Shown here: piece after piece, positions 6,266 through 24,668 of the stretch
How the letters are laid out: every line of letters starts with the position of its first letter
Numbering within the stretch: the stretch's first letter is position 1
Virus record (IMG/VR): IMGVR_UViG_3300009788_000161
Coordinates: 1-43,732 of that record
DNA from: a virus
Direction: 5' to 3' (one strand)
DNA: 43,732 bases
Program-made: the position numbers and the translations under genes
Notes under the pieces: model-generated
What the model was told of the DNA's origin: nothing
Databases searched by the model: none
What the model saw: the letters and a program-made list of their open reading frames with translations, nothing else

Positions 6266-7177
6266 ATGAAACGGTATTTTTCAGAAGATGATTTCAACGT
6301 TAAGAACATGATCATTGATATCATCGCGGGAGTGTTAGGTATCACCCTATTTTTTGGCACCGTCTATACGGTAGAAGAGGGACATATCGGCATAAAGAAA
6401 CGATTCAGCGAAGCAGTGGAGCAAGTCAACCCTGGCTTGCACTTCAAGATGCCTTTTATTGAAAGTATTGAGCCAATTGAAGTTCGTACACGAAAGAACG
6501 CAGAGAAGATGCCTTCTTCAACTTCCGAGCAAATGCCAGTCACCGTCGAAGTTTCTGTGAACTGGACGGTTGATAAAACTGCAGCTTTAGACCTGTATCG
6601 GAAGTATGGGGGCTTGGCTCAATTTGAGGCTCGAATATTGGACCCTCGTTTCCGTTCTGCAGCAAAGGATGTAATCCCTCATTTTACTGCAGAGAAACTA
6701 ATTCAAGACCGGGCGGCAGCTATAAACGGCATCGAGTTAAAGCTGATCGAAGAGATGAAAGGATTCCCGGTATCAATGGACAATGTACAGATCGAAAACA
6801 TCGTTTTGCCCGTAAAGTATATTCGATCAATTGAAACCAAGCAGACAGAGAAAAACCTAGCGGCTGCAGAAGAGCACAAGCTGGCACGTCAAGCATTAAC
6901 AGCGGAACAAGCTGTCAACACGGCTAAGGCTGAACGGGACGCCAGGAAAGCCACAGCAGACGGCCAAGCCTATGCAGTGCGAGAGGCGGCTAAAGCGGAG
7001 GCAGAAGCTATCACGGTTAAAGGTGAAGCGGAAGCCAAGGCGATCAAGGCCAAATCTAATGCTCTGAAAGCGAATGCGCTTATCGTCAAGTTGACGGAAG
7101 CACAGCAGTGGGATGGCAAACTACCACAAACAATCCTTGGAAGCGGAGTTATGCCAATTTTGGATATGAGAAAGTAA
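6266..7177 (+). CDS. SPFH/band 7 (stomatin/prohibitin-like) membrane protein
   Basis: A 303-aa protein with a short N-terminal cytoplasmic stretch, one transmembrane helix (about residues 14-36), an SPFH/band-7 domain from Y-T-V-E-E-G-H-I-G-I (about 35) to about 200, and a long Ala/Glu/Lys-rich coiled coil (about 200-275) before a hydrophobic C-terminal tail. This is the architecture of HflK/HflC, stomatins and prohibitins, which form ring-like membrane scaffolds and can regulate FtsH-type proteases. It is the first large gene of the rightward early unit. In a phage it might protect a phage protein from proteolysis or alter the host membrane; that is inference. The start follows GAGGGGAAAG. 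Confidence 0.85.
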   Translation: MKRYFSEDDFNVKNMIIDIIAGVLGITLFFGTVYTVEEGHIGIKKRFSEAVEQVNPGLHFKMPFIESIEPIEVRTRKNAEKMPSSTSEQMPVTVEVSVNWTVDKTAALDLYRKYGGLAQFEARILDPRFRSAAKDVIPHFTAEKLIQDRAAAINGIELKLIEEMKGFPVSMDNVQIENIVLPVKYIRSIETKQTEKNLAAAEEHKLARQALTAEQAVNTAKAERDARKATADGQAYAVREAAKAEAEAITVKGEAEAKAIKAKSNALKANALIVKLTEAQQWDGKLPQTILGSGVMPILDMRK

Positions 7178-11349: not shown

Positions 11350-11367
11350 ACTAATAGGAGAGGGACG

Positions 11368-12159
11368 ATGGGATTGATTAAAGAGATCAAGAGTAAAAGC
11401 TTTGCGAACGGCTCTGTCTATTTGTTGCATACAGCTGATGGACTGCCTGTTGAAGTAACCGATACGTTTCTACCTTTTTATACAAAGGATGCGATTGGTA
11501 TAGGACAAAACGCTCTTAAAGATCAGGGGCTGGGAAGTAGGGCTGAGCGCTGGATGATCGGTGTCTCAACTATGTCGGGTTGCCCGGTGCGGTGCAAGTT
11601 CTGTGCGACTGGTAAGCTAAAGAAGTGGCGCAAACTTACTGCTGACGAGATGGTAGATCAGGTCGTATTCATCGTTAATAAGCACAAGGATATATACCCG
11701 ACTGACTCTCAAGAGTTCAAGATCAACTGGACGCGAATGGGGGAGCCTTTCCTTAACGTTGGGGCTGTACGTGATGCAATCCGCGCAATCGATTTGATGT
11801 ATCCAAACGTGCATCACTATGTATCAACGGTCGGCATCAGAAATTCTGACTTCTCATGGATTAAAGACAATATCACTCTGCAGTTAAGTGTTCACAGTTT
11901 TGATGAAGATCAGCGAGACTGGCTTATCCCAATCAAGAAGATGAAATTAGAGGAGATGGGTGCTATTCGCACTACGAGCAACTTGAAAACAACTGTCAAT
12001 TTATCCCTTGTTCGGGAGGAGGATTTTAACATTGAAGAGCTAGTAAGGATTTTTCCTAAGGAGTACTTTTTCGTGAAGCTTAGCCCTATCAACCCCAACG
12101 ATGTCAGCGATGCCAATGACATAAGCTCTGGCGTAATTACCGCCACAAACCTTGTTTAG
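11368..12159 (+). CDS. RlmN/Cfr-like radical SAM enzyme, core subunit lacking the C-terminal cysteine
   Basis: A 263-aa radical S-adenosylmethionine enzyme. The iron-sulphur motif G-C-P-V-R-C-K-F-C-A-T-G places C72, C76 and C79 in a C-x3-C-x2-C pattern followed by A-T-G, and M-G-E-P-F-L-N follows at 124-130. Both are hallmarks of RlmN and Cfr, which methylate C2 or C8 of adenosines in 23S rRNA (RlmN also tRNA). It lacks most of the N-terminal accessory domain of RlmN and stops after L-S-P-I-N-P-N-D, before the region where RlmN/Cfr carry the second catalytic cysteine. That region is encoded by the next ORF, ten bases on. The gene has a good GGAGAGGGACG start site. It may act on host RNA or a different substrate. 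Confidence 0.85.
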   Translation: MGLIKEIKSKSFANGSVYLLHTADGLPVEVTDTFLPFYTKDAIGIGQNALKDQGLGSRAERWMIGVSTMSGCPVRCKFCATGKLKKWRKLTADEMVDQVVFIVNKHKDIYPTDSQEFKINWTRMGEPFLNVGAVRDAIRAIDLMYPNVHHYVSTVGIRNSDFSWIKDNITLQLSVHSFDEDQRDWLIPIKKMKLEEMGAIRTTSNLKTTVNLSLVREEDFNIEELVRIFPKEYFFVKLSPINPNDVSDANDISSGVITATNLV

Positions 12160-12169
12160 GAGATTTACA

Positions 12170-12313
12170 ATGGAAGAGAACATTAAAGCCCAACTAGAAG
12201 AAGCTGGATATGACTATGCAATTGCTATAGCCACCCAAGCTGAAATCGAAGCAGGAGCAGCCTGTGGACAATTGAGTATCATCGAAGAGGAGTTGCCAAC
12301 ACAACCAGAATAG
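12170..12313 (+). CDS. C-terminal cysteine peptide of the split RlmN/Cfr-like enzyme
   Basis: A 47-aa ORF that reads I-E-A-G-A-A-C-G-Q-L-S-I around residue 32, matching the conserved A-C-G-Q-L segment at the C-terminus of RlmN/Cfr, whose cysteine takes part in the methyl-transfer reaction. The preceding helix (I-K-A-Q-L-E-E-A-G-Y) also fits the RlmN C-terminal layout. It is in the +1 frame relative to the core ORF. AGGAG overlaps the core ORF's TAG stop, with the ATG seven bases later, so termination-reinitiation is a natural way to express it. A simple frameshift mutation or +1 frameshifting near 12137-12159 are alternatives. Confidence 0.75.
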   Translation: MEENIKAQLEEAGYDYAIAIATQAEIEAGAACGQLSIIEEELPTQPE

Positions 12314-12327
12314 GCGATACTGAACAC

Positions 12328-12349
12328 GTGCCAGTTAAGTAGTCGGCAC
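12328..12349 (+). other. Short hairpin opening the gene-free region 12314-12804
   Basis: GTGCC (12328-12332) pairs with GGCAC (12345-12349). It is followed by CTCTGT (12352-12357) pairing with ACAGAG (12379-12384). These are the first of a series of inverted repeats in a 491-base stretch with no convincing gene. Confidence 0.4.
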
Positions 12350-12383
12350 CGCTCTGTGGAAGGGGCGAAAGGTGAAAGACAGA

Positions 12384-12475
12384 GGGTTTAAGTTACGATT
12401 TCTGGCATACGGGTACTACTTCCACGTATGTCTTTAATCTCCCACTGTCAGGGGTCGTATCTTAAGCCCTTTTTT
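12384..12475 (+). terminator. Terminator-like long stem with U-tract after the radical-SAM genes
   Basis: GGGTTTAAGTTACGA (12384-12398) pairs with TCGTATCTTAAGCCC (12455-12469) over 15 positions with one mismatch and one G-U. An inner hairpin, CATACG (12406-12411) with CGTATG (12425-12430), lies inside. Six T residues follow directly (12470-12475). The closing stem next to a T-run resembles an intrinsic terminator with an unusually large, structured loop; it may equally be the core of a structured RNA. Confidence 0.5.
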
Positions 12476-12571
12476 GTGTCTGGTCGAAAGACAAAGCCCA
12501 TTTGAGGGCGGCACGATGTAGGTGGAAATCCTACCAGGCGCATCCCTCCTCCCTCCCTCTGAGCGTTGTAG

Positions 12572-12674
12572 TCTGTATATGTGGTGGCATTGCCGAATCA
12601 GGTCAAGATGCCCGCGCCTTCAAGGGTCGCAACCTTGAGATAGTCAGAGGTAGAAATGCCCCTTCATATACAGA
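12572..12674 (+). ncRNA. Compact structured RNA candidate
   Basis: Nested inverted repeats: a 10-bp outer stem (12572-12581 with 12665-12674), then GGCATT (12586-12591) with AATGCC (12655-12660), and inside TCAAGG (12620-12625) with CCTTGA (12633-12638) closing a 7-base loop. In addition CCTCTGA (12556-12562) could pair with TCAGAGG (12644-12650), crossing the outer stem as a pseudoknot. The sequence AGATAGTC after the inner hairpin weakly recalls the S element of group I introns, but I find no partner for it. Confidence 0.45.
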
Positions 12675-12701
12675 TTACCGGGTTCACTTATACAGAAACA
12701 T

Positions 12702-12710
12702 TGCTATACT
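12702..12710 (+). promoter_or_regulatory. Extended -10 promoter for the HNH gene
   Basis: TGCTATACT is an extended -10 (TGnTATACT). A weak -35, TTCACT, lies 16 bases upstream (12683-12688). It would produce a leader of about 85 bases before the HNH start at 12805. Confidence 0.5.
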
Positions 12711-12745
12711 GGTTTAGCGCCTACCCTTAGCGGGGGAAACAGAGA

Positions 12746-12798
12746 CCTCAATCACCTCTTGGCGCGTCTTTTCTGATTGATACCTTATGATTGAGGGG
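12746..12798 (+). promoter_or_regulatory. Ribosome-binding-site sequestering switch of the HNH leader
   Basis: CCTCAATCA (12746-12754) is complementary over 9 bases to TGATTGAGG (12788-12796), which contains most of the GAGGGG ribosome-binding site of the HNH gene. It can instead pair over 7 bases with an upstream copy, TGATTGA (12774-12780). The two pairings exclude each other, so the leader could switch between a closed and an open ribosome-binding site. Confidence 0.5.
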
Positions 12799-24591: not shown

Positions 24592-24627
24592 GCCCCCAAG
24601 CCTCTTAACAATGCTCACCCTGGGGGC
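24592..24627 (+). other. Leader hairpin upstream of capsid genes
   Basis: GCCCCCA (24592-24598) and TGGGGGC (24621-24627) form a perfect 7-bp stem with a 22-base loop. No T-run follows. It could be a 5' leader structure for stable capsid mRNA. Confidence 0.45.
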
Positions 24628-24668
24628 TATAGCATATTTAGTGGTTGAGATGTAGAAGCATCCAATCC

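Follow-up and report, generated by a model that had tools for sequence, protein, structure and literature searches.

The phage gene pair described here probably encodes a class A radical SAM methylase made of two polypeptides, in which a small, separately encoded peptide supplies the carrier cysteine in trans to a radical SAM core. The split is real, old and widespread, and within the reach of the searches it is undescribed: a split RlmN or Cfr was found neither in the open literature searched, which mostly leaves subscription journals outside, nor in the family libraries.

Organization of the gene pair in the window

The window, that is, the whole stretch of DNA analyzed, is a 43.7-kb IMG/VR virus record that carries phage genes, including those for a DnaB helicase, an ERF recombinase, a capsid protein and a lysozyme. 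In this window the radical SAM core gene is followed after a 10-nt gap, in the +1 frame, by a gene for a 47-aa peptide, and an AGGAG lies 7 nt ahead of the peptide ATG (Table 1). Because the stop codon of the core gene overlaps this AGGAG, the two genes may be translationally coupled. The first-pass annotation had described the core as an RlmN/Cfr-like ORF lacking the C-terminal region and the next ORF as the carrier of the missing segment. The core ORF does contain SGC-x3-C-x2-C-ATG and TRMGEPFLN and ends at about RlmN residue 328, the 47-aa ORF contains GAACGQL, and the frame, the gap and the overlap of the stop codon with the ribosome-binding site were all as claimed.

Table 1. Positions of the core gene, the peptide gene and their sites in the window
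Feature	Position	Strand	Correspondence or remark
Shine-Dalgarno-like AGGAGAGGG before the core gene	11356..11364	+	Sequence, consensus only
Radical SAM core gene, 263 aa, ATG to TAG	11368..12159	+	RlmN residues ~78-328, without the N-terminal helical domain
Gly65 codon	11560..11562	+	RlmN C118 position
[4Fe-4S] cluster motif C72-x3-C76-x2-C79	11581..11604	+	
MGEP motif, M124-P127	11737..11748	+	
Core stop TAG (12157-12159) overlapping AGGAG (12158-12162)	12157..12162	+	Peptide-gene ribosome-binding site
47-aa peptide gene	12170..12313	+	RlmN residues ~329-362: last helix, strand and Cys loop
Cys32 codon, carrier cysteine	12263..12265	+	RlmN C355 position

Similarity of both products to RlmN and Cfr

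The core of the window matched the radical SAM family of Pfam (PF04055, E 1e-8) and the RlmN model TIGR00048 (E 3e-17); the latter match covered residues 59-196 only and, at 62.6 bits, did not reach the curated cut-off of 290. The best NCBIfam matches of the core were the RlmN/Cfr models. The 47-aa peptide had no family match in Pfam, PHROGs or NCBIfam, and neither core nor peptide had a match in PADLOC.

A joint profile of core and peptide was aligned with the RlmN structures 6fz6 (E 2e-25), 4pl1, 5hr6 and 3rf9 and with the Cfr structure 9p0p, and the alignment ran through the AACGQL loop. When the peptide was used alone in a profile-profile comparison, it coincided exactly with the C-terminus of RlmN (P 1.3e-4, probability 53%). 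The peptide profile alone did not find RlmN in the PDB and gave nothing significant there, which may be expected of only 40 residues.

Conservation of the split across phages

When viral contigs were scanned with the core, 23 loci at 57-100% identity were obtained, and in nearly all of them the core stop codon is followed by an ORF of its own, about 40 aa long (MExIKxQLExxGYDYAVAIATxAEIENGAACGQLAII). Scanning with the peptide profile gave 80 loci, on contigs partly shared with the core scan, and the scan of GTDB genomes gave 28 loci, 26 of which showed the split. When all ORFs were searched with HMMs and a census was taken, 123 core/peptide pairs were counted in viral contigs, phage records and MAGs. 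These correspond to 87 distinct cores and 88 distinct peptides, which are the safer numbers because some contigs carry several loci. Named phages with the pair are the crAss-like Kehishuvirus 'tikkala', Moorella phage MTATph1, Pectobacterium phage Wc4, Yersinia phage P778 and Vibrio phage D479. In D479 the peptide ORF (L028:4803-5081) is duplicated in tandem almost perfectly and contains two AACGQM units.

Core and peptide were always separate ORFs, with no fusion among the 123 pairs. The core was present on the contig for 73 of the 76 peptide loci that do not lie at a contig edge. At L080, L081 and L097, on contigs of 101, 27 and 213 kb, the peptide gene was present and the core was not found. 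The only core loci lacking a peptide were L016 and L127, where the contig ends soon after the core, and at L095 the core is broken.

Taken by itself, the window, with its gap of only 10 nt and its +1 frame, would be consistent with an ordinary RlmN gene that is interrupted by a sequencing error or a recent frameshift or is read by programmed frameshifting. In the relatives, however, the relative frames 0, +1 and +2 all occur, the gap in core-first loci ranges from -17 to +2855 nt, other genes intervene, and the order is reversed at L103, L104, L131 and L141, where the peptide gene lies upstream of the core. Moreover, L030, a contig that shares 99.975% identity with the window along 12.1 kb, has the same split. 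This variation in frame, gap and order, together with the near-identical contig, rules out all three explanations, to which we assign a negligible probability. A frameshift rescued by reinitiation, which the first-pass annotation had offered beside a two-subunit enzyme, is likewise refuted, since frame, spacing and gene order vary among relatives and both ORFs are intact; its two-subunit reading is strongly supported and extends to many phages. A programmed frameshift gene was also rejected as a candidate, as it would be expected to have a constant frame change and a slippery site, in contrast to the three frames, the gaps of up to 2.9 kb and the four reversed loci.

The peptide as a conserved gene

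The pooled dN/dS of the peptide was about 0.18, which indicates purifying selection. Of 85 peptide ATGs, 53 have a Shine-Dalgarno-like site ahead of them, compared with 10% of random ATGs, and such a site was also found in 25 of the 33 loci in which the peptide gene is far from the core or upstream of it. The identities of cores and peptides were correlated (Mantel r 0.82, reached in 0 of 1000 permutations), and such co-divergence is expected of co-inherited partners. The conservation of the peptide spans its whole length, with no division into a leader and a variable core.

The peptide is acidic, with a mean net charge of -4.8, and the basic KTRG stretch that precedes the Cys loop in RlmN is replaced by the neutral or acidic ATxAE in the split family. 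Binding of RNA is uncertain for these reasons.

Structure predictions

An AlphaFold model was computed from 125 sequences for L014, a naturally in-frame pair whose stop codon was read through to give one chain with an 8-residue linker. The model (pLDDT 90.9, pTM 0.91) matched the tRNA-cross-linked RlmN structure 5hr6 with a Z of 27.8 and 2.6 A over 265 residues. Residues 1-307 of the model were aligned with RlmN 80-362, which places the peptide cysteine C300 on C355, and the peptide completes the RlmN fold. As residue 1 of the model corresponds to RlmN residue 80, the N-terminal helical accessory domain of RlmN (residues 1-79) is absent. Other RlmN structures were tied with or close to 5hr6, Cfr 9p0p gave a Z of 18.6, and the best match outside RlmN/Cfr gave 14.2.

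The reversed pair L103 was modelled with an alignment of cores only. This model also folds well, and its match is the core alone on RlmN 74-328, as the sequential aligner cannot place an upstream peptide. The coverage of RlmN 74-328 by this core alone defines the position of the cut, with the core corresponding to about 78-328 and the peptide to about 329-362.

Comparison with known enzymes

The phage enzyme shares with RlmN (E. coli 3rfa and 5hr6; Sphaerobacter thermophilus 6fz6) the radical SAM barrel, the cluster motif, MGEP and the C-terminal AACGQL loop with the carrier cysteine. RlmN, however, is one chain with the N-terminal helical domain and C118, whereas the phage enzyme consists of two chains, lacks this domain and has Gly at the C118 position. 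Cfr (9p0p) also has the class A fold and a carrier cysteine, but it is a single chain with C105 and its structural match is weaker.

Single-chain RlmN-like enzymes were found in Salmonella phage Arash, Stenotrophomonas phages BUCTxx99 and ANB28, Vibrio phages 249E41-1 and 166E36-1, Aeromonas phage Ahp1 and at L115. Their core is RlmN-like, as in the split family, and those of Arash, BUCTxx99, ANB28, 249E41-1 and Ahp1 also lack the N-terminal helical domain. In contrast to the split enzyme, they keep the C118 equivalent (TVMCVSTQxGC) and have GGGCGQL at the C-terminus of the same chain. Two rare single-chain relatives from MAGs, L144 (Bacilli) and L145 (Myxococcales), have a VACGQ segment equivalent to that of the peptide, but on the same chain as the core. 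These two and Bacteroides phage Versailles (phrog_24834) have an RlmN-like core without the C118 cysteine and a cysteine near the C-terminus, and they differ from the split pair in being single chains.

As in class A radical SAM methylases, the split family has the CxxxCxxC cluster motif in a radical SAM barrel (all 87 cores), and the C-terminal carrier cysteine equivalent to RlmN C355 is kept in all 88 distinct peptides, but on a separate polypeptide. The second conserved cysteine (RlmN C118, Cfr C105) is absent. RlmN and Cfr act on A2503 of 23S rRNA or A37 of tRNA; given the missing helical domain and the replaced KTRG stretch, the substrate of the split family may differ from that of RlmN.

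Loss of the second cysteine

RlmN and Cfr need two cysteines: C355 is methylated and converted to a methylene radical, and C118 is probably the base that triggers release (PMC9692996, PMC5130265). An RlmN C118A mutant remains covalently cross-linked to tRNA (PMC9692996; PMC5130265). In the split family, the column matched to C118 in the structures through the joint profile is Gly in all 87 distinct cores. The only invariant cysteines of the cores are the three of the cluster, and 26 of the 87 have a cysteine three residues beyond the C118 position. The core of the window has no cysteines other than the three cluster cysteines and carries Gly65 at the C118 equivalent, a feature that was absent from the first-pass annotation. 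As C118 is missing, plain RlmN/Cfr chemistry cannot be assumed, and release must either rely on a different base or proceed slowly. The single-chain relatives L144 and L145 also have no cysteine at this position and yet are fused, so the loss of C118 may predate the split.

The loss of C118 could mean that the peptide is a consumable carrier. As a co-substrate, it would be methylated on its cysteine, converted to the methylene radical and added to RNA or another target, and without C118 the bond would stay unbroken, leaving one peptide attached per event. The invariant Gly, the cross-linked RlmN C118A mutant, the ranking of the cross-linked structure 5hr6 as the best match of the L014 model, the position of the peptide gene, which is uncoupled from that of the core, and the two-unit peptide of D479 are all consistent with such a role. 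On the other hand, L144 and L145 lack the cysteine as single chains, so its loss need not imply a consumable carrier; the base could be some other group, the tandem peptide was found in one phage only, and the rank of 5hr6 is tied with that of other RlmN structures. We therefore consider a consumable carrier unlikely. If it were true, the loss of the releasing cysteine would enable the phage to tag RNA, its own or that of the host, by linking a peptide to it through a Cys-CH2-adenine bond.

The pair could also be degenerate, with core and peptide lacking methylase activity and serving, for example, as a decoy for RNA or a host factor; the lost C118 and the one broken core at L095 point in this direction. 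This is very unlikely, however, because the cluster, the SAM-site motifs and the carrier cysteine are invariant over very divergent phages and the genes are under purifying selection.

Neighboring genes

A second radical SAM gene, MoaA-like and here called rSAM2, is present in 16 of 110 loci, and it lies between the core and the AACGQ peptide in L032, L036, L043, L051, L058, L059, L063, L068 and L093. It is mostly preceded by an ORF of 95-211 aa with a Gly/Cys-rich tail and a C-terminal cysteine (e.g., DPCGRGGKTSNFSHC and GGSSGGCGCGSGHC), and the two look like a phage-encoded RiPP precursor and its maturase. rSAM2 was also found in unannotated phage records of 635-735 kb, and the PADLOC pVip model matched it with E 3e-11. 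At L032:5131-6120 the AACGQ peptide follows rSAM2 in frame with no stop codon between them, a possible fusion. Near the pair at L062, L069, L086, L118-L130, L134 and L139 there is another radical SAM gene (NCYFCYQ motif, 21 loci) or a gene resembling class I methyltransferases (24 loci), and in several loci these genes lie between core and peptide.

The peptide itself could be the precursor in a RiPP-like system, modified by the core or by a neighboring second radical SAM enzyme to give a signal, toxin or cofactor. It is small and separate with a single invariant cysteine, and some loci have second radical SAM genes and Cys-tailed ORFs resembling RiPP precursors between core and peptide. Most loci, however, contain only the core and the peptide. 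There is also no need for a precursor to match the C-terminus of RlmN and complete its fold, as the peptide does, and the peptide is conserved over its full length without a split into leader and variable core. A RiPP-like role is accordingly quite unlikely, and the two-polypeptide methylase remains our preferred reading.

Genes for NAD salvage, named from their sequences alone, are also frequent near the pair: nicotinamide phosphoribosyltransferase (NAMPT)-like genes in 29 of 110 loci and NMN adenylyltransferase-like genes in 27 of 110 (L033, L048, L053, L060, L102 and others). In Vibrio phage 166E36-1 the single-chain relative adjoins NAMPT. These neighbors may only mark an accessory region of large phages.

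In the window, an SPFH/Band 7 protein (PF01145, E 2e-28) is encoded at 6266-7174 on the + strand, and in phage 'tikkala' a Band 7 gene is likewise near the core/peptide pair. The roughly 470 bp after the pair (12314-12786) contain no long ORF; this stretch is rich in inverted repeats (TCTGTATATG...CATATACAGA) and has a tRNA-like 7-nt loop; ARAGORN detected no tRNA and Rfam gave nothing significant in it. A candidate abiF RNA (RF03085, 48 bits, E 6e-6) was found at 24592-24628 on the + strand, where a short gap between genes lies upstream of head genes.

Proposed mechanism and significance

In the proposed enzyme, the 263-aa core would bind the [4Fe-4S] cluster and SAM, and the 47-aa peptide, as a separately translated subunit, would provide the last helix and strand of the barrel by packing on its open edge, and a mobile loop of the peptide would bring in Cys32. 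If the reaction resembles that of RlmN, Cys32 would be methylated by a first SAM, and a second would be cleaved to the 5'-deoxyadenosyl radical, which would generate the Cys-S-CH2 radical. This radical would add to an sp2 carbon of the substrate; during infection, the likeliest substrate is an adenine in tRNA or rRNA. A physical complex of core and peptide, methyl transfer and a nucleic acid substrate are presumed here from the likeness to RlmN. Methylation of RNA by the pair may in turn affect translation, antibiotic response or defence, as the first-pass annotation had suggested. Core and peptide would be expected to use a known chemistry in a new form. A separate peptide could be overproduced and exchanged, which would suit a catalyst that often uses up its carrier.

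The carrier cysteine of RlmN and Cfr is built into the enzyme chain itself, and their product release depends on a second cysteine; the split family represents a long-lived natural domain-split experiment. The split carrier could be added, omitted, mutated or labelled as a 40-residue peptide. With a separable carrier and no release cysteine in any member, the order of carrier methylation, radical formation, adduct and release becomes directly testable. For the phages themselves, the pair points to an uncharacterized modification made by a wide range of them during infection.
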